A stretch of 64,000 nt of DNA from Gluconacetobacter aggeris. GTDB taxonomy: Bacteria > Pseudomonadota > Alphaproteobacteria > Acetobacterales > Acetobacteraceae. This document shows, piece after piece, positions 26,759 through 38,179 of the stretch; the stretch's first letter is position 1, and each line of letters begins with the position of its first letter. Under the pieces are notes generated by a model. It did no database searches, had not been told where the DNA came from, and saw only the letters and a list, made by a program, of their open reading frames with translations. Both the position numbers and the translations under genes were made by a program. The stretch covers positions 62,001 to 126,000 of the forward strand of contig NZ_JABEQD010000006.1 of the NCBI RefSeq assembly GCF_014174395.1. Reading direction: 5' to 3'.

Positions 26759-26780
26759 TCCCGGGGGCTTGCCCCCGGGA
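26759..26780 (-). terminator. GC hairpin after the exported RidA gene
   Basis: tcccgggggc and gcccccggga form a perfect 10-bp stem (or 9 bp with a 4-base loop) starting 7 bp past the stop of the leftward operon. No U-run follows. It belongs to the same ggggct-t-gcccc type as other gene-end hairpins here. Confidence 0.5.
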
Positions 26781-26787
26781 ACCGGCA

Positions 26788-27294
26788 TCAGTGGGCGCGA
26801 ACCGCGACGACCTCGATTTCCACCAGCCAGCCGGGATTGGCCAGATGGGCAACTTCGAATGCCGAGCGGGTCGGCAGCTTCGGCTGGGCCGGCGTGCCGT
26901 AGAACTCGGTATAGGCCTTCATCATCCCCGGAAAGTCGATCTTGCCCAGCTTGGGGTCGGCAACCATGTAGATGTGCATGTTGACGACATCGCCCATGGT
27001 CAGCTTCAGCTTGGCCAGTTCGCCCTGGATGCGGGTCAGCGCGCCGCGCACCTGGGTTTCGGTGTCGCCATAGGCGGCCAGCGTCTTCGGATCGGCCGTC
27101 TTGTCGACCGGCGGCGCCCCCATGCCGCTCAGATAGATGGTCGAGGCTCCCGGCGGCACCTCGATGGCGCTGGAAATCGGGAAATGGCTGCCCGGCTCGC
27201 TATGCCGGACCACATCCGCCGCCCGGGCGGAAACCATGCCGCCAGCCAGGACGGAAGCCAGCGCGGCGATGCCGAAAGTCTTGAAAATCGTCAT
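26788..27294 (-). CDS. Exported RidA/YjgF-family protein
   Basis: A 168-residue protein with a clear signal peptide (MTIFKTFGIAALASVLAGG, then MVSARA), followed by a RidA/YjgF fold: STIYLSGMGAPP, TETQVRGALTRIQGELAKL, DVVNMHIYMV and WLVEIEVVAV. Family members hydrolyse reactive enamines and imines; most are cytoplasmic, so export is notable. The canonical Arg of active RidA (PxRATV) is replaced here by LPTRSAFEV, which keeps an Arg. It follows the cytochrome c gene by 7 bp in the operon with a flavin amine oxidase, so it may clear the imine product in the periplasm. The ATG at 27294 was chosen because it starts the signal peptide. Confidence 0.88.
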   Translation of the reverse strand: MTIFKTFGIAALASVLAGGMVSARAADVVRHSEPGSHFPISSAIEVPPGASTIYLSGMGAPPVDKTADPKTLAAYGDTETQVRGALTRIQGELAKLKLTMGDVVNMHIYMVADPKLGKIDFPGMMKAYTEFYGTPAQPKLPTRSAFEVAHLANPGWLVEIEVVAVRAH

Positions 27295-27301
27295 ATCCCT
27301 G

Positions 27302-27721
27302 TCAATCCTCTTCGGAGCTGATGGTCGGATGCTGGGCCGCGACATCCGACGGCTTCACCATGTCGGTGTAATGATTGCCGAAATGGGTACGAATATAATT
27401 CACCACGTCCGCGACCTGCTGGTCGGTCAGCATGCCGGAAAACCACGGCATGCCGCCGAAACCGTTCAGCACGACATAGACAGGGTAGTCCGCGCTGGCC
27501 AGCTTGGCATTCCCGGCCAGCGCCGGGAAACGGGCGCCGGCCCCTTCGGCGCCCTTGGCATCGGGCATGTGGCAGCTCTGGCAGACATGCTTGTAGACAT
27601 CAGCGCCGTCTTTCAACGGCTGCATCTTGCCCACGACGGCACTGGCACTGTCGGCCCGCGCCTGCGGGGCAAGAAACGCGCCGGCCGCCAGGCCGGCCAG
27701 AAGCAGAAATACGGACCGCAT
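27302..27721 (-). CDS. Periplasmic monoheme cytochrome c
   Basis: A 139-residue class I cytochrome c with signal peptide (MRSVFLLLAGLAAGAFLAPQ, then ARA), heme site CQSCH at residues 47-51 and a probable axial Met in GMPWF. The C-terminal helix is LTDQQVADVVNYIRTHFGN. The ATG overlaps the amine oxidase stop by one base (TGATG at 27719-27723), so the two are translated together. It most likely accepts electrons from the oxidase and passes them to a terminal oxidase. Confidence 0.93.
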   Translation of the reverse strand: MRSVFLLLAGLAAGAFLAPQARADSASAVVGKMQPLKDGADVYKHVCQSCHMPDAKGAEGAGARFPALAGNAKLASADYPVYVVLNGFGGMPWFSGMLTDQQVADVVNYIRTHFGNHYTDMVKPSDVAAQHPTISSEED

Positions 27722-29322
27722 CAGGCAGCTCCCTGCGCGTGTTTGTGCAGACGGGTGATGGCATCCAGCGACGACAGGATGGCGCCTTCCTGCCAGCAGC
27801 CGACATGCGACGCATGCTCGCCGGCCAGCACGATCCGGTTGTCGATGTCGCACAGGGCCTTGTAATGGGCCTTGCGCGCCTGTTCCGACCACATGGAACA
27901 GCAGCCGAGGGTCCAGGGCATGCGGCTCCAGGCCATCGACACGCCGGTACGGAACTCCTTGCGGTAGTTGGCATGAATGACCTGGCCCTGCGCCAGGCCG
28001 TGCTCCAGCCGCTCGGCCGGGGTCATGCCGGCGAAATCATACGCCGCAGGCCCGAACATGTAGCCGCCCAGCAGCACCGCCGGCCCGTCCGAGAAATAGC
28101 CGTGGCTGGGGTAGGAGATCTGGCTGATCGGCTGGTCGGTGAAGCTGATGCCGCCATAGATCTGGTCGTCCTGCTCCCAGAACCGGCGCTTGAATTCCAG
28201 CCCCAGCTTGACCGACGACGCATAGGGCACCGCCGCGATTGCCGCCTTCATCGGGCCGCTGACCTGCACGTCCAGCTGCGACAGCACCGGCAGCGGAATC
28301 GTGCAGACGCAATAATCCGCCTCGGCCTGCCGCACAGCGCCGCCATGGGACATGTCGTTGTAGGTGACCGTCACATGGCGATCGTCCTGGTGAATCGCCG
28401 TCACCTTGCAGTTCAGCGTGATCAGGTCGTGCACCTGGCGGTTGAAGCCCTTGCCGATCTGGTCCATGCCGCCCACCGGCTGGAACATCGTCGTCTGCAT
28501 GTCCAGCCGCTCGTGGAACGCCATCCACTGCCACAGGCCCGACCGCATGACGTCTTCCCGCGCGAACAGGTCGGACGGCACGGGCGCGCCATCCAGCCCG
28601 CCGCCCTGCGGCTTGGCGAAGCCCCGGCGCAGCGAGCTGATCGCCCCCTTGCGATAGGCTCCATCGGCCGTCAGCCCACCCCAGCCGCGCATTGCCGAGA
28701 CGACATGCGCGCGCTCGTCGGCCGAGACCACTTCATCCAGCTTGTGCTGGTCGATCGCCTTGGCCAGCAGCTCCGCAGTGAAGCCGGTGAAATCCGCCGC
28801 GTAATCGCGGTAGCGGACAGGCTTGCCGTCGAACGCCTGGCTGGAATGCAACCAGGAATTGTGATTCAGCTCGACAAACGGCTCCAGCTCGACGCCGAAG
28901 GTCTTGCAGTAATGCAGCAGGCCCTGGTGATGATACGGAATCCGCCACGGGCCGGGATTGATGTAATTTCCCGGCGCGAACTGCACCTTCTGCACCGCGC
29001 CGCCCAGTTCGGTCAGCGTGTCGCCGCCGCGCAGCGAGATGTTGCGGCCGCCGGCACGGTTCTGGAACTCCAGGATCTGGACCTGATACCCGGCCTTGCG
29101 CAGCTCATAAGCGGCCAGCATGCCCGCCAGGCCGGCACCCAGCACCAGGACCTTCGTGCCTGGCTTGCCGCCCGTCAGCGCGGGCGGTCCCTTGAAATCC
29201 GTGCCCGCGGCATGCCCCAGGCTCGTCATGGCCTGGTACAGGGCAGCACTCCCCCCCAGGATACCGATTCGTGTCAGCATCTGGCGGCGGGTGGCCACCG
29301 GACGCCGAAAAGCATTTGTCAT
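27721..29322 (-). CDS. Tat-exported flavin monoamine oxidase family protein
   Basis: A 533-residue FAD enzyme. The N-terminus has a twin-arginine signal (ATRRQMLTRIGILGG; Arg pair at about 12-13), then a Rossmann FAD site VLVLGAGLAGMLAAYELRKA and the second FAD motif FQNRAGGRN. The C-terminal FAD-contact stretch is IVLAGEHASHVGCWQEGAI. This is the amine oxidase superfamily that oxidises amines or amino acids to imines. It is the first gene of a three-gene unit with a cytochrome c and an exported RidA, which suggests it acts as a dehydrogenase with cytochrome c rather than oxygen as acceptor, as known for NicA2. Substrate unknown. Start ATG 29322 has GGGGAA upstream. Confidence 0.92.
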   Translation of the reverse strand: MTNAFRRPVATRRQMLTRIGILGGSAALYQAMTSLGHAAGTDFKGPPALTGGKPGTKVLVLGAGLAGMLAAYELRKAGYQVQILEFQNRAGGRNISLRGGDTLTELGGAVQKVQFAPGNYINPGPWRIPYHHQGLLHYCKTFGVELEPFVELNHNSWLHSSQAFDGKPVRYRDYAADFTGFTAELLAKAIDQHKLDEVVSADERAHVVSAMRGWGGLTADGAYRKGAISSLRRGFAKPQGGGLDGAPVPSDLFAREDVMRSGLWQWMAFHERLDMQTTMFQPVGGMDQIGKGFNRQVHDLITLNCKVTAIHQDDRHVTVTYNDMSHGGAVRQAEADYCVCTIPLPVLSQLDVQVSGPMKAAIAAVPYASSVKLGLEFKRRFWEQDDQIYGGISFTDQPISQISYPSHGYFSDGPAVLLGGYMFGPAAYDFAGMTPAERLEHGLAQGQVIHANYRKEFRTGVSMAWSRMPWTLGCCSMWSEQARKAHYKALCDIDNRIVLAGEHASHVGCWQEGAILSSLDAITRLHKHAQGAA

Positions 29323-29414
29323 CAAGTTTCCCCAGCAGACAGGACAGAAAACCTTACCATTCAAGAACGTTCCCCGGGCGGCCCGGCCGTCCGGGGGACA
29401 GAAACATCAAGCCA

Positions 29415-29442
29415 GTTATAGGGGTCTGCTCCATATGGGCAA
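29415..29442 (-). promoter_or_regulatory. Candidate sigma-70-type promoter of the amine oxidase operon
   Basis: On the minus strand ttgccc (29442-29437) and tataac (29420-29415) are separated by 16 bases, a good match to a -35/-10 pair. Transcription would start near 29408, giving a leader of about 86 bases before the amine oxidase ATG. Confidence 0.4.
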
Positions 29443-29620
29443 TGACATGATCCCCCTGTCGTAACGATTTGTTAAGCACCCTCCATACCCTTGCGGCGAA
29501 AAATCATTTGTTTCCCAGACCTTTCCGGCCTCGAAAAAAAATCGTCCGCGGCAGGGCGCGATTTGAATACAACTTTGAAACAAAAAAAATCGTTACAATA
29601 TGTCCATGAAACCAGATGGG

Positions 29621-31063
29621 TCAGGAATCCTGCCGCATAATCGGCGGCATGAGGTCCGGCGGCATCGGGCTGACATAGGGGCGTTCGGCCAGCCGCGCGG
29701 CGTGGTCCCGCCGGGCCCGCGCCAGCAACTCGGGGTCGGACAGCACATCCACCGCCGTCGCCGCCATCACCTTGGCAACATGGACCATGCCCTTGTGGGC
29801 GACCGACGATTTGCCCTGCGCCGTCATCTGCCACGAATGCAGCGCCGTGCCGATGGCACAGGTCGCGCCGAACGCCTGGACGGTCGGCACCGTCCAGCTG
29901 ACATCCCCCACATCGGTCGACCCCAGCAGAATCGGCCCGACCGGCGACGGATAGGGCAGGACGACATCGCATAGCGGCCTGTCGGCCGCGGGCGGCAGCC
30001 CCACCAGGCGGAATGCCGCCACAATGTCCTCCTGCGTGAAGGTCTTCTGCATCTCCCGGCCGAAGGCACGATCCGCCGCGTCGAACGGCGGCGGCCCCAG
30101 CCGTTCCAGATTGGCCTGCATCGCCGCTTCCAGCGGCGGATTGGGCAGCAGATTCGCCATGCCGCTGACCACTTCGCATTCGACCCGGGTTTCGGTCATC
30201 ATCGCGGCCCCCTCGGCCACGCGGCGCACACGCTCGGCCAGCGCCAGCATGTCGTCCAGTTCCGCCGCGCGGACGGTATAGCGGATGACCACCCGCGACT
30301 GGACCACATTGGGCGCGGCACCCCCTGCGTCCTGATAGGCGTAATGGATGCGCGAACTCGGCAGCATATGCTCGCGCAGGTAGTTCACCCCGATATTCAT
30401 CAATTCCGCAGCATCCAGCGCCGAGCGGCCCAGATGGGGCGCCGCCGCCGCATGGGCGGAGCGCCCGATGAAGGTGAAATCCAGGCGCATGTTGGCCAGC
30501 GCCGCTGGCGGAAAGACCGTGGCGAAGGCAAAGGGATGCCATGAAATCGCGACATCCACGTCGTCGAACACGCCGGCCCGCACCATGAAGCCCTTGCCGG
30601 CTCCCCCCTCCTCGGCCGGGCAGCCATAATAGCGCACCCGGCCCGGCATCCCGGTCTCGGCCAGCCAGTCCTTCAGCGCCGCCGCCGCCAGAAGCGACGC
30701 CGAACCCAGCAGATTATGCCCGCAGGCATGCCCGTTGCCGTCGCCGTCCAGGGGCTGGTGAACCATCGCCCCCGCCTGCTGGCTCAGGCCCGGCAGCGCG
30801 TCATATTCGCCCAGAAAGGCAATCACCGGCCCGCCTTCCCCGGCCTCGCCCATGATCGCGGTCGGCAGCCCCGCCACATCGCGGGTCACGCGAAAGCCTT
30901 CCTGCTCCAGGGCCGCGTCATGCAGCGCGACCGAGCGGAATTCACCGAAATTCAGCTCCGGCACCGCCCATACCGCATCGCTCAATGCGATCAGCGGCGC
31001 CTTGCGCGCCTCGACGCATTCCCAGATCCGCGCGCTGTTTCGCATCGCCCGTTCCCAACCCAT
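29621..31063 (-). CDS. M20-family amidohydrolase (AbgB-like)
   Basis: A 480-residue metallo-amidohydrolase of the M20D type related to p-aminobenzoyl-glutamate hydrolase AbgB. Metal-site stretches are GNGHACGHNLLG, CPAEEGGAGKGFM and ISWHPF; the dimerisation domain includes FIGRSAHAAAAPHLGRSALDA. It should cut an amide bond in an N-acylated amino acid or related compound in the cytoplasm; no signal peptide is seen. Start at 31063 is the longest; the ATG at 31045 has a better purine-rich site (GGGAACGG) and is also likely. It lies on the same strand as the alcohol dehydrogenase, 71 bp downstream. Confidence 0.9.
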   Translation of the reverse strand: MGWERAMRNSARIWECVEARKAPLIALSDAVWAVPELNFGEFRSVALHDAALEQEGFRVTRDVAGLPTAIMGEAGEGGPVIAFLGEYDALPGLSQQAGAMVHQPLDGDGNGHACGHNLLGSASLLAAAALKDWLAETGMPGRVRYYGCPAEEGGAGKGFMVRAGVFDDVDVAISWHPFAFATVFPPAALANMRLDFTFIGRSAHAAAAPHLGRSALDAAELMNIGVNYLREHMLPSSRIHYAYQDAGGAAPNVVQSRVVIRYTVRAAELDDMLALAERVRRVAEGAAMMTETRVECEVVSGMANLLPNPPLEAAMQANLERLGPPPFDAADRAFGREMQKTFTQEDIVAAFRLVGLPPAADRPLCDVVLPYPSPVGPILLGSTDVGDVSWTVPTVQAFGATCAIGTALHSWQMTAQGKSSVAHKGMVHVAKVMAATAVDVLSDPELLARARRDHAARLAERPYVSPMPPDLMPPIMRQDS

Positions 31064-34232: not shown

Positions 34233-35549
34233 ATGATTTTTAAGATATTCGTATTCCTGTCGCTTCTGGCCACACCGGCTCTCGCCGCCGGAACGCCATC
34301 GGCCGCCTGCCTGCCGACGCCCAACGGCAGCAACCCCTGCCCCGTCACGCTGCATCGCCCGCCCGCCGCCCCGCTCTCGGCCATGGCGCAAGTGGGGCGC
34401 AGCCTGTTCCACGATCCCGCCCTGTCCGGATCGGGGCGACAATCCTGCGCCTCCTGCCACGACCCCGCCCACCATTACGCGCCCGCCGGCTCCGCCGCCG
34501 TGGCGCTGGGCGGCACCAGCCTGACACGCGACGGACTGCGCGCGGTCCCCACCCTGACCTACCTCGAAACCCGCCCCGGCTTCAGCATCGGCCCCGATGA
34601 CGCCGAAACCGAATCCGCCGCCACGCCGTCGACCACCGCCATCGGCCCCCACGGCGCCAAGACCGCGCGGAACACCACCGCCTCCGCCACCAATCTGGTC
34701 CCGCAGGGCGGCCTGTTCTGGGACGGCCGCGCCGACACCCTGCAACAGCAGGCCGACGGCCCCCTCTTCAATCCCGACGAAATGGCCTCCAGCCGCGCCA
34801 TCGTCCTAGCCCGCCTGACAGGGGGCCTCTACGCCCCCATACTGCGCCGCCTGGGCGGCCCCGCCGTCGCCAGCTCGGACGATCTGCTGCTCTCCGAAGC
34901 CCTGTTCGCCATCGCGCGCTATCAGATCGAGGACCCGTCCTTCCACCCCTATGCCAGCCCGTTCGACGACTGGCTGGAAGGCCGCCGCCGCATGACGCCC
35001 GCGCAGCGCCGGGGCTATCTGCTGTTCAACGACCCGGCAAAGGGCAATTGCGCGGCCTGCCACCCCGACCGTCCAGGCCCCGACGGCACGCCCCCGCTCC
35101 TGACCGACCATCAGTTCGAGGCCCTGGGCGTGCCGCGCAACCGCGCCCTGTCCGCCAACCGCGACCCTTCATTCCACGATCTGGGCCTCTGCGGGCCGGT
35201 CCGCACCGACATGGCGACCCGCGCCGATCTGTGCGGCCTGTTCATCACACCGACCTTGCGCAACAGCGCCACCAGACATGCCTTTTTCCATAATGGCGTC
35301 TATCGCACGCTGGACCAGGTTCTGGATTTCTACATACTGCGCGACATCACTCCCGACCGGATCTACCCCAGGGATAGCGACGGCCAGGTCCTGCGATATG
35401 ACGACCTGCCGCTCCCCTACCACGCCAATCTCGACGTCACGGATGCACCCTTCGACCGCCACCCGGGCGACGCACCAGCCCTGACCCCGCGCGAACGGCA
35501 GGACATCATCGCCTTCCTCCACATGCTGACCGATCGGCCGGCACGCTGA
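34233..35549 (+). CDS. Diheme cytochrome c peroxidase / MauG family protein
   Basis: A 438-residue periplasmic protein with signal peptide (MIFKIFVFLSLLATPALA) and two heme sites, CASCH at residues 72-76 and CAACH at about 273-277. GRSLFHDPALSG, NLVPQGGLFWDGRADTLQQQ and FITPTLRNSATRHAFFHNGV are typical of bacterial diheme peroxidases and MauG relatives. It may remove hydrogen peroxide with electrons from cytochrome c, or modify a partner protein. It follows the exported phosphoesterase, a pairing worth noting. Cys26 and Cys36 in the mature N-terminus could form a disulfide. Confidence 0.92.
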   Translation: MIFKIFVFLSLLATPALAAGTPSAACLPTPNGSNPCPVTLHRPPAAPLSAMAQVGRSLFHDPALSGSGRQSCASCHDPAHHYAPAGSAAVALGGTSLTRDGLRAVPTLTYLETRPGFSIGPDDAETESAATPSTTAIGPHGAKTARNTTASATNLVPQGGLFWDGRADTLQQQADGPLFNPDEMASSRAIVLARLTGGLYAPILRRLGGPAVASSDDLLLSEALFAIARYQIEDPSFHPYASPFDDWLEGRRRMTPAQRRGYLLFNDPAKGNCAACHPDRPGPDGTPPLLTDHQFEALGVPRNRALSANRDPSFHDLGLCGPVRTDMATRADLCGLFITPTLRNSATRHAFFHNGVYRTLDQVLDFYILRDITPDRIYPRDSDGQVLRYDDLPLPYHANLDVTDAPFDRHPGDAPALTPRERQDIIAFLHMLTDRPAR

Positions 35550-35623
35550 GGGGCCAGCCCTGTCACGGGCGCGTGAGTTATTCTATCGTCCGTTCCATCG
35601 ACCCGCGAACAGAGAGACCGGCC

Positions 35624-35977
35624 ATGAATCCGATTACCCGCCTGCAACCCGAAACCCGCCTGTGCGGTGCAACGATCCATAACGGGCTGGTCTATCTGGC
35701 CGGACAGGTCGCCGATGATCCGTCGCAGGATGTCGCAGGGCAGATGACCGATATCCTGCATCAGGTCGATGCCCTGCTGGCCGAAGCCGGCACGGACAAG
35801 AGCCGCCTGCTGTCGGTCCAGATCTTCCTGGCCGACATGGACGATCTGGCGGACATGAACCGCGCCTGGGACAAATGGCTGGACCACGGCAACAAACCGG
35901 CCCGCGCGACCGTCGAGGCCCGTCTGGCCGACCCGGCCTGGCGCGTCGAGTTGACCGGCATCGCGGCATTGCCCTGA
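35624..35977 (+). CDS. Cytoplasmic RidA/YjgF-family protein
   Basis: A 117-residue member of the RidA superfamily with HNGLVYLAGQVADDP, VQIFLADMDDLADMNRAWDKW and the catalytic-type Arg in PARATVEARLAD. It has no signal peptide, in contrast to the exported paralogue at 26.8 kb. It should deaminate reactive enamine/imine intermediates made by PLP enzymes; ilvE is next to it but convergent. The ATG at 35624 has GAGAG seven bases upstream and was chosen over a GTG at 35573. Confidence 0.9.
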   Translation: MNPITRLQPETRLCGATIHNGLVYLAGQVADDPSQDVAGQMTDILHQVDALLAEAGTDKSRLLSVQIFLADMDDLADMNRAWDKWLDHGNKPARATVEARLADPAWRVELTGIAALP

Positions 35978-37289: not shown

Positions 37290-38147
37290 TTACGACAGGC
37301 TCGCCGCCACATGCCGGCCAATCTCGGCAAAGACGGTGGCGAACTGCGCATCGGTCGGAGAACCGCCGCGCGTATAGACGACCACGATCACCGGCCCGCC
37401 CGTTCCGGGCCACCCGATGGCGATATCGCCGGCAATATCCCTGCCGTTATTCCCCGTCTTGTCCCCCACGACCCAATTGCCGGGCAGGCCCGCGCGCAGC
37501 CGGTTCTTTCCGGTCTGGCAATTGACCAGCCAGCTCTTCAGCATGGCGCGCGACCCGTCCGACAGCACGTCGCCCAGGACGAGCCGCCGCGCGATCCCGG
37601 CCATCGCCAGGGGTGTCGTCGTGTTGCGCACACCCCCCAGCGGGGTGCGGTTGAGATAGGGCTCGATATCGTCAAGGCGCGTCACGTCGTCGCCGATCGC
37701 CCGCCAGAAACGCGTCAACGCAGCCGGGCCGCCAACACGCGCCAGCAGCTTGTTGGCGCAGACATTGTCGCTGAATTCGACCGCCCCGGCGCACATCTCG
37801 CGCACCGACAGGGTCCCCCGGCCCAGATTCGCCTTCGCGACCGGGGCATACATCGTCCCCATGTCCGCGGCCGTAAAGGCGATGACCTCATCCAGATCCG
37901 CCTTGCCCTGGTCGGCACGCGCCAGCACGCACGCAGCCAGCGACGCCTTGAACGTGCTGCACATGACGAACCGTTCGCTCTGCCGCCAGCCAAATGTCTT
38001 TCCGTTGGAGACATTTTCGGCAAAAACGCCAACCCGGCCGCCCGTCGCCTGCTCGTAATCGGCAATTGGACCGGGCGCCGGCGTCCGCGCGGACGCCGGA
38101 GAGATGAACAGGGCCGGAGCGGATTGAAGAAAAGCGCGGCGTTGCAT
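37290..38147 (-). CDS. Class A beta-lactamase, probably Tat-exported
   Basis: A 285-residue serine beta-lactamase. The signal MQRRAFLQSAPALFISPASA has a twin-arginine pattern. All class A motifs are present: STFK with nucleophile Ser64 (Ambler 70), SDN at 126-128, EPYLN at 162-166 carrying the general base Glu, and KTG at 230-232. A Cys precedes the nucleophile (CSTFK) as in carbapenemases, but the partner Cys after KTG is missing, so the usual disulfide cannot form. It should give penicillin or cephalosporin resistance if expressed. The ATG at 38147 has GGGG eight bases upstream; GTG 38156 is an alternative. No mobile element flanks it, so it is likely intrinsic. Confidence 0.93.
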   Translation of the reverse strand: MQRRAFLQSAPALFISPASARTPAPGPIADYEQATGGRVGVFAENVSNGKTFGWRQSERFVMCSTFKASLAACVLARADQGKADLDEVIAFTAADMGTMYAPVAKANLGRGTLSVREMCAGAVEFSDNVCANKLLARVGGPAALTRFWRAIGDDVTRLDDIEPYLNRTPLGGVRNTTTPLAMAGIARRLVLGDVLSDGSRAMLKSWLVNCQTGKNRLRAGLPGNWVVGDKTGNNGRDIAGDIAIGWPGTGGPVIVVVYTRGGSPTDAQFATVFAEIGRHVAASLS

Positions 38148-38179
38148 ACGTGTCACCCCATCAGGTCCAGCCGGACCCT

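Follow-up and report, generated by a model that had tools for sequence, protein, structure and literature searches.

The window analysed here, a 64,000-nucleotide stretch of a Gluconacetobacter aggeris contig (NZ_JABEQD010000006.1), carries on its minus strand three genes in the order lao-cccA-ridA that together span positions 26788-29322 (Table 1). The coordinates confirm the leftward arrangement described in the original prediction: the TGA of lao and the ATG of cccA share a single base (TGATG), and cccA and ridA are separated by 7 bp (27295-27301). The promoter that had been placed upstream of lao is largely conserved in 10 relatives, but a consensus promoter scan, which reported one other site where 0.5 would be expected, did not report the TTGCCC-16-TATAAC pair; because the scan missed a pair that relatives conserve, we grade the promoter only as plausible. 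The element AAATCGTTACGA is a possible operator; most of the 11 upstream regions that we aligned retain its A-rich run and TTACG core. The hairpin that follows ridA (minimum free energy -30.1 kcal/mol over a 56-nt stretch, z -2.06) was not among the terminators listed by the scan and is a possible transcript end. An M20 amidohydrolase gene upstream was considered as a fourth member of the operon and dropped; it accompanies 9 of the 80 named loci, and the stretch of G. diazotrophicus that we examined was not found to contain it.

Table 1. Features in and around the lao-cccA-ridA operon (positions in the window).
Feature	Position	Strand	Description
lao	27721-29322	-	Tat-type FAD L-amino acid oxidase/dehydrogenase, 533 aa from ATG
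cccA	27302-27721	-	Mono-haem cytochrome c, 139 aa
ridA	26788-27294	-	Rid3-like predicted imine deaminase with N-terminal signal, 168 aa
Candidate promoter	29415-29442	-	TTGCCC-16-TATAAC
Conserved element	29459-29470	-	AAATCGTTACGA; just upstream of candidate promoter
Hairpin	26759-26780	-	Strong, no T run; directly 3' of ridA
CCP/MauG-type gene	34233-35549		About 5 kb from lao-cccA-ridA

Lao matches the Pfam family PF01593 (8e-50), and its amine oxidase domain is closest to L-amino acid oxidases (LAAOs) of the R. opacus type. In particular, its best solved relative is the R. opacus LAAO (2jae; 6e-87, 296 bits), with MAO-B scoring just 47 bits, and LAAOs are by far the closest to Lao among the best 60 of 91 solved relatives. 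The R. opacus enzyme is distant (the G. diazotrophicus protein is reported to share 34% identity with it) and has Trp where Lao has C475, yet the alignment places its substrate-site Arg, Tyr and Trp and its flavin-site Lys opposite R127, Y421, W510 and K372 of Lao, all of which are conserved. R127 and Y421 correspond to the carboxylate-binding Arg84 and Tyr371 of the R. opacus enzyme; among the scored rows of our tree, the Arg is present in 88 of 88, and the Tyr in 83 of 88, with Phe in the other 5. Because Lao groups with the LAAOs and retains the carboxylate-binding Arg and Tyr, it probably acts on an L-amino acid. The flavin-site Lys, which is typical of oxidases, is also present in proven dehydrogenases; it is Lys in all 88 scored rows, and across these does not discriminate between cytochrome-linked and cytochrome-less L-amino acid oxidases (LAOs). 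Trp occupies position 475 in 27 of the 29 rows that lack a cytochrome, in 5 of the 56 with a mono-haem cytochrome and in none of the 3 with c4; we draw nothing from this because it is confounded with phylogeny, the five mono-haem rows with Trp forming one clade.

The N-terminus of Lao, TRRQMLTRIGILGGSAALYQAM, is of the Tat type, with an RR motif and an uncharged core, as judged by eye and by our own hydropathy and charge rule, which resolved 110 of 112 loci. A Tat signal, so predicted, is shared by Lao with the cytochrome c-using flavin amine dehydrogenases (clades 1-3 of Akram et al. 2025), as is a neighbouring gene that encodes an exported cytochrome c: CccA (PF13442, 9.5e-14; PF00034, 5.6e-11) begins with a Sec-type signal, judged by eye, and contains a single CXXCH motif (residues 47-51) with Met91 as the likely axial ligand; C47, C50, H51 and M91 are found in 98% of 56 aligned cytochrome rows (CccA itself included). 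The N-terminus of RidA (PF01042, 1.3e-14) is likewise of the Sec type, by eye and by our own hydropathy and charge rules, and all three products thus look exported, each under its own predicted signal, as had been claimed.

The nearest solved chains to RidA, PFL1385 and PSPTO3006, are both Rid3 proteins. The Rid3 subfamily retains the Arg and Glu of RidA with Ile in place of Tyr (PMC4433059), a pattern found here as R143, E159 and, by alignment to PFL1385, I40; I40 and R143 occur in 45 of 45 aligned rows and E159 in 98% (the operon's own RidA included). The Rid3 proteins PFL_1385 and PSPTO_3006 have imine deaminase activity on LAAO-made imines (PMC5619798), and RidA, judged on these residues, is Rid3-like and carries those of an imine deaminase. 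Across loci, Rid export tracks LAO export: signal-bearing Rids number 92 of 92 over a generously drawn stretch, which can run beyond the start codon, and 82 of 84 by a stricter count with 8 unresolved (the Rid of locus L127 is signal-bearing, with a score of 2.44). The presence of imine-deaminase residues, and an export that follows that of the oxidase, are consistent with the exported RidA of the imine-hydrolase type envisaged in the original prediction.

By gene content, order and similarity, the operon is an orthologue of a system that is already known. The lao-cccA-ridA operon of G. diazotrophicus PAL5 (GDI2456-2454) was published in 2016 in a paper that predicts a Tat signal, proposes that the LAAO is periplasmic and suggests a role for cytochrome c and RidA (PMC5053998), and a periplasmic LAO1 accompanied by LAO2/RIDA is known from Chlamydomonas (PMC10805672); we therefore reject the claim that no system with all three parts exported had been described. 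The two bacterial operons share three adjacent genes in the same order and strand (as does locus L092), encoding a 533-aa Tat-type LAAO, a cytochrome c and a RidA; the LAO of G. diazotrophicus PA1 5 is 89% identical to Lao, and G. diazotrophicus is the nearest neighbour of Lao in our tree. They differ in that the genes neighbouring the G. aggeris operon were not found in the G. diazotrophicus stretch examined. Ten named Gluconacetobacter/Nguyenibacter loci, and G. diazotrophicus as well, keep the three proteins in this order with 78-100% identity (some of the alignments spanning just part of cccA or ridA), and on this comparison the arrangement is beyond chance. In G. diazotrophicus, Tn5 insertions in lao block the conversion of tryptophan to indole-3-pyruvate and IAA and also reduced cccA and ridA transcripts (PMC5053998), and ccm mutants make IAA at 5% of the wild-type level (Lee et al. 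2004, as cited in PMC5053998). The Chlamydomonas system resembles the operon in combining a periplasmic LAAO with RidA and in converting tryptophan to IAA; it differs in belonging to an alga and in being an H2O2-making oxidase, and the part of PMC10805672 that we drew on mentions no cytochrome for its cluster.

All four LAO paralogues of the G. aggeris genome adjoin a cytochrome c gene, whereas three of the four lack an adjoining Rid gene, which points to Rid being dispensable for the chemistry. Of the 80 named loci, 78 have a cytochrome gene next to LAO, as do 22 of 30 LAO loci in a 398-genome sample of the phylum (to which L196 and L197, of genome G259, belong). Our tree of 89 LAOs places the cytochrome-coupled members in a single clade, within which the cytochrome was later lost once, such that the cytochrome state changes twice, whereas Rid presence changes 18 times. 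Because the coupled LAOs form a single clade, the constancy of the cytochrome represents one evolutionary event, not many. In this respect the original prediction is not supported: the neighbourhood is not an inseparable set of three, since the Rid is often absent and the cytochrome, within the clade, hardly ever. In one sub-clade (L115, L116 and L120), a di-haem c4-like cytochrome substitutes for the usual one. By our own rule, a Tat-like start is retained at 36 of 58 cytochrome-less loci, so relatives commonly export LAO with no cytochrome beside it. A Pseudomonas-like genus has LAO directly followed by a Rid3-like gene (the Rids resembling PFL_1385 and PSPTO_3006); the operon also has a Rid3-like gene, but unlike in the operon no cytochrome c was found with these pairs, and in one branch of the genus the export of LAO and that of Rid seem, from their predicted signals, to have been lost together. 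At loci L182-L185, very long frames surround LAO, and neither a cytochrome nor a Rid was found nearby. New here are the cytochrome gene beside all four paralogues and the clade pattern of cytochrome versus Rid.

NicA2/Pnao-CycN and other cytochrome c-using flavin amine dehydrogenases (PMC12224317) pair a Tat flavoenzyme with an adjoining exported cytochrome c, as the operon does, although Lao is closest to LAAOs and has a Rid gene within its operon. In most of the flavin amine enzymes tested, a Tat signal and an adjacent cytochrome c predicted cytochrome use; among the 11 cytochrome c-linked enzymes listed for clades 2 and 3 (NicA2 and Pnao included), the Tat/cytochrome c enzyme of B. anthina uses both O2 and cytochrome (Table 1 of PMC12224317) and the others prefer cytochrome, and the c4-linked clade 1 enzymes reduce cytochrome slowly (PMC12224317). 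The terms 'LAAO', 'amino acid oxidase' and 'RidA' are absent from the main text of that paper, and we found no kinetics in the literature for the cytochrome-coupled LAO clade. Because a cytochrome c is the most constant partner in the clade, and given the published NicA2-type kinetics (PMC12224317), CccA is the likely electron acceptor of Lao, in agreement with what had been proposed.

The best reading of the operon, to which we assign a probability of roughly 75%, is a cytochrome c-linked L-amino acid dehydrogenase that works in the periplasm together with an imine hydrolase of its own, encoded by an operon of the G. diazotrophicus type. In the scheme that we propose, whose acceptor, electron route and site of Rid action are inferred, folded Lao would be exported by Tat, and CccA and RidA by Sec; a hydride would pass from the L-amino acid substrate (in the case of G. 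diazotrophicus, L-tryptophan) to the flavin of Lao, yielding a 2-imino acid, and the reduced flavin would be reoxidized by CccA in two one-electron steps; CccA would hand the electrons to the respiratory chain, probably to a CtaD-type oxidase; and RidA would hydrolyse the imino acid to a 2-oxo acid (indole-3-pyruvate in the case of tryptophan) and ammonium. The genome encodes cytochrome c1 and a CtaD-like oxidase subunit, which at 668.3 scores slightly below the family cut-off of 670.75. It also encodes five CCP/MauG-type genes, one of them convergent with the C1 paralogue unit. This reading as a whole is supported by the orthology, the published mutants, the LAAO residues, the co-occurrence of the cytochrome, its substitution by c4, the cytochrome use of most tested enzymes with a Tat signal and an adjacent cytochrome c, the loss of IAA in ccm mutants, the activity of the Rid3 relatives, the tracking of LAO export by Rid export and the encoded c1 and CtaD-like proteins; counting against it are the lack of kinetics for the clade, the retained oxidase-typical Lys, the dual use in B. 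anthina, the slow c4-linked clade 1, the CtaD-like score, the Rid missing beside three paralogues, the single-clade origin and the Tat-like starts without a cytochrome.

The confidence that we place in the alternatives overlaps from one to another and with that in the best explanation. Lao might be a true periplasmic H2O2-making oxidase, with the cytochrome c serving elsewhere, for example as donor to an H2O2-removing cytochrome c peroxidase. Its nearest solved relative, the R. opacus LAAO, is an O2-using oxidase, and Lao keeps the flavin-site Lys; one CCP/MauG-type gene lies by the C1 paralogue unit and one near the operon, and H2O2 is able to decarboxylate 2-oxo acids (Rodrigues et al.). We nonetheless consider this unlikely, setting against it that export alone does not demand a cytochrome, as the cytochrome-less relatives with Tat-like starts indicate, that published enzymes with an adjacent cytochrome c mostly favour it over O2 (PMC12224317), and that no peroxidase gene lies within the operon itself. 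Slightly less likely still is that Lao reduces O2 and cytochrome c at comparable rates, for which the B. anthina enzyme offers a precedent, albeit one against ten that prefer cytochrome. It is also rather doubtful that RidA is a structural or regulatory partner of Lao instead of an imine hydrolase: such a role would fit the LAO paralogues without an adjoining Rid and has a parallel in Chlamydomonas, for which PMC5053998 cites an LAAO/RidA complex with a RidA-like Mbeta subunit, but RidA retains the catalytic Arg and Glu and the Rid3 Ile, and its Rid3 relatives hydrolyse LAAO-made imines (PMC5619798). A plain amine as substrate, where the original prediction had spoken of an amine, is very improbable and is rejected here, since, broad as the flavin amine oxidoreductase superfamily is, the similarity to LAAOs over MAO-B, the conserved carboxylate Arg and Tyr and the tryptophan phenotype of the G. 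diazotrophicus orthologue point to L-alpha-amino acids.

The reading of Lao as a cytochrome c-linked dehydrogenase bears on a question from the earlier work, for the 2016 paper (PMC5053998) left open which acceptor the enzyme uses; it cites work from 2004 that linked auxin in G. diazotrophicus to the maturation of cytochrome c. We think it fairly probable that the whole Pseudomonadota clade of 'L-amino acid oxidases' consists of cytochrome c-dependent L-amino acid dehydrogenases, a further cytochrome c-using branch of the superfamily, often with a co-exported imine hydrolase, and that acetic-acid bacteria make indole-3-pyruvate and auxin without H2O2 while gaining respiratory energy; if true, this would explain the loss of auxin in cytochrome c maturation mutants. 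Should cytochrome c prove to be the acceptor, many genes that now carry an L-amino acid oxidase annotation would be mislabelled dehydrogenases, and the cytochrome-less LAOs of the Pseudomonas-like genus, both exported and cytoplasmic, would offer natural controls for shifts in O2 reactivity and in Rid localisation.

The unit lies on the minus strand. Its first two genes, lao and cccA, are joined by TGATG, and cccA and ridA are spaced by 7 bp. The N-terminus of Lao is predicted to be of the twin-arginine type and those of CccA and Rid of Sec types (export signals being called by eye, motif, charge and hydropathy). Coordinates, Pfam assignments and N-termini bear out the original prediction of three exported-type genes in a tight operon. 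The proposed promoter fared less evenly: a TTGCCC-16-TATAAC block, together with an upstream A-run/TTACG element, is mostly conserved in ten relatives, but the block is not among the sites listed by a consensus promoter scan. A strong hairpin lies 3' of ridA. Directly upstream of lao is a gene for an M20-type amidohydrolase, a family that includes auxin-conjugate hydrolases; among the named relatives, this gene adjoins lao in the closest six and is more distant in three others; it was not found in the G. diazotrophicus stretch around its lao operon. The window also encodes a class A beta-lactamase.

Operon genes and other features in the window
Feature	Position	Strand	Length	Assignment
lao	27721-29322	-	533 aa	Pfam flavin amine oxidoreductase
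cccA	27302-27721	-	139 aa	Pfam cytochrome c
ridA	26788-27294	-	168 aa	Pfam Ribonuc_L-PSP
M20-type amidohydrolase	29621-31063	-		TIGR01891, 266 bits (cut-off 153.75)
Di-haem gene	34233-35549	+		MauG/cytochrome c peroxidase-like
Second Rid gene	35573-35977	+		No visible signal
Class A beta-lactamase	37290-38156	-		NF033103, 275 bits (cut-off 200); twin-arginine-like start

The operon is a known one, already met in the sister species Gluconacetobacter diazotrophicus. Window Lao shares 99% identity with its Gluconacetobacter tumulicola counterpart and 89% with the protein of G. diazotrophicus PA1 5; G. diazotrophicus is sister to the window sequence in our LAO tree (support 92). Passages of Rodrigues et al. 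(2016; PMC5053998) describe two Tn5 mutants of G. diazotrophicus hit in GDI2456 (lao), which adjoins GDI2455 (cccA) and GDI2454 (ridA); transcripts of all three genes were lowered in the mutant examined. In the lao mutants tryptophan remained in the medium, indolic compounds stood at ~2-4% of wild type, and IAA was undetected. In that study the enzyme was predicted to carry a Tat signal and proposed to be a periplasmic LAAO, with cytochrome c and RidA suggested as its helpers. The claim that no described system has all three parts exported is thus overtaken by this 2016 account. A 2023 Chlamydomonas paper (PMC10805672) cites the cluster and describes a periplasmic LAO1 with LAO2/RIDA, and PMC6981854 mentions GDI2456 once.

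Among the best 60 of 91 solved relatives of Lao, the closest is the R. opacus L-amino acid oxidase (RoLAAO; 6e-87, 296 bits), followed by other LAAOs at ≤145 bits, with MAO-B at 47 bits. In the structure-search alignment, Lao R127 and Y421 align with the RoLAAO Arg and Tyr that we take to be carboxylate-binding, K372 with the flavin-site Lys, and W510 with an active-site Trp. Across the 88 tree rows (LAO sequences) with a scored cytochrome state, the R127 and K372 columns are invariant, Y421 is Tyr in 83 and Phe in 5, and W510 is Trp in 87. Because Lao is closest to the LAAOs and these site residues are conserved, an L-alpha-amino acid is its most probable substrate; the simple amine originally assigned as substrate class is the wrong choice. 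Position 475 (window 27898-27900) is Trp in 27 of 29 cytochrome-less rows versus 5 of 56 mono-haem rows, in which Cys is the commonest residue, a difference confounded with phylogeny.

The cytochrome is the constant partner of the LAO unit, and Rid is less so. The window's own genome (4.32 Mb, 61 contigs) encodes four Lao homologues, that of the window (contig C6) and paralogues of 74% (C14), 58% (C1) and 42% (C12) identity, each adjoined by a cytochrome c gene; Rid stands beside LAO in the window unit only, five other PF01042 genes being located elsewhere. At 78 of 80 named loci a same-strand cytochrome gene is no more than 1.5 kb away, and at 58 of the 80 a Rid gene lies within the same distance. 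Of the two loci without a cytochrome, L079 (Acetobacter musti) truly lacks the gene, whereas the contig of L089 stops 84 bp downstream. A phylum sample of 398 genomes (match threshold 1e-60) gave an LAO match in 27, the window's included; the 30 matches outside that genome (28 loci of the search plus L196 and L197) comprised 22 with a cytochrome (16 of them with Rid), 5 with Rid alone and 3 with neither. In a sample of the organism's own family, 37 of 150 genomes, again including the window's, had a match. Besides the loci of that genome and L098, already in the phylum count, 37 loci were read: 22 had a cytochrome (15 of these also Rid) and 15 had neither partner. Both samples share species with the named set. 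On contig C1 (42888-44037; L003, L213), the 58% paralogue and its cytochrome converge on an opposite-strand CCP/MauG-type gene, and in Novosphingobium (L085 and L088) two tandem LAO genes are flanked on both sides by a cytochrome c gene.

The LAO tree was built by a quick method with SH-aLRT support only and the weakest match as outgroup. It retained 89 of 184 rows at <82% identity, with an exemption from this cut-off for the three paralogues and G. diazotrophicus, and includes a long row (L120) and 12 rows of unusual residue composition. The cytochrome-coupled rows fall into a single clade of 61 (support 95), which also takes in L079 and L089, the row cut off by its contig end, and the tree requires 2 changes of cytochrome state and 18 of Rid presence. 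Since one clade is one event, the constancy of the cytochrome does not represent many independent cases. Within this clade, the A. musti LAO (L079, 5001-6551) lacks both a cytochrome and an adjacent Rid, and its Tat region is altered, a case of a single loss. In one sub-clade (L115, L116 and L120), a two-CXXCH c4-like protein between LAO and Rid replaces the mono-haem cytochrome, a swap that points to selection for an electron-carrier role. A full LAO-cytochrome-Rid unit on a contig labelled Acidobacteria (L078) groups with Acetobacteraceae/Rhodospirillales rows and represents either transfer or mis-binning.

Passages of Akram et al. (2025; PMC12224317) treat a Tat signal and a neighbouring CytC as markers within the NicA2-like enzymes. 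Most enzymes so marked reduced the adjacent CytC rapidly and reacted slowly with O2. One used both acceptors, and in solution the reduction of c4-type cytochromes by the enzymes paired with them was slow. Neither LAAO nor RidA nor the phrase amino acid oxidase appears in the main text of that study. Tat export alone does not predict a cytochrome, because 36 of 58 cytochrome-less loci retain a Tat-like start by our own motif and charge rule. The window unit, however, carries both markers, and ccm mutants of G. diazotrophicus make IAA at 5% of wild type (Lee et al. 2004, as cited in PMC5053998). Taken together, the best reading of window Lao is as a cytochrome c-using L-amino acid dehydrogenase, which keeps the cytochrome of the original mechanism as likely acceptor but not its amine. 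An onward electron route from cytochrome c is probably present, since the genome encodes cytochrome c1 and a CtaD/CoxA-like subunit I (score 668.3, just below the family cut-off of 670.75); it also encodes two CyoB quinol oxidases. Room should be left for Lao as an H2O2-making oxidase, with the cytochrome serving, for example, a cytochrome c peroxidase, as the genome holds five CCP/MauG-type genes, one of them within the window 5 kb from the operon. That di-haem gene is followed directly by the second Rid gene.

The solved chains nearest to window Rid, PFL1385 and PSPTO3006, are both Rid3 proteins, and both act in vitro on imines produced by snake LAAO (PMC5619798). The Rid3 marks (Arg, Glu, Ile), as defined in passages of Niehaus et al. 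(2015; PMC4433059), are conserved, with R143 (the catalytic Arg) and I40 in 45 of 45 aligned rows and E159 in 98%; I40 shares its column with the Ile of PFL1385. Clustering of FAD amine oxidase genes with those for RidA, and in some cases Rid3, was already pointed out there.

The predicted location of Rid tracks that of Lao. By a loose rule, all 92 LAO-adjacent Rids outside a Pseudomonas-like genus have a hydrophobic stretch towards the N-terminus; by a stricter rule starting at Met, 82 of 84 do (8 unresolved), the two failures being L093, with a longer signal-like start, and L164, which is doubtful. In the Pseudomonas-like genus itself LAO occurs in 34 of 149 genomes, and its 36 loci (all 35 matches plus one from the phylum sample) have a cytochrome beside LAO in none and Rid in 35. 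At 15 of these the LAO signal core is charged (for example, GGEKAVKDAL) and Rid lacks a signal: 13 such Rids begin right at the domain (for example, MSDSIQRTS), like PSPTO_3006, and for L134 and L153 automated reading neither fixed a proper start nor detected a hydrophobic stretch. At the other 20 the LAO core is uncharged and the Rid N-terminus signal-type (19 by the loose rule, plus L127). The Fisher value for this association, 5e-9, ignores kinship: L122 and L134, the only signal-less rows retained in the tree, are sisters (support 100), so that the signals were probably lost in one switch. Even so, sequence comparison shows both proteins changing predicted compartment in step.

Among the literature matches listed, titles and abstract openings held no electron-acceptor test of a G. 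diazotrophicus-type Lao; subscription literature lay mostly outside these matches, so they say little of print overall. Within the same matches, evidence that the whole LAAO clade is cytochrome-coupled is new, and this coupling is directly testable.
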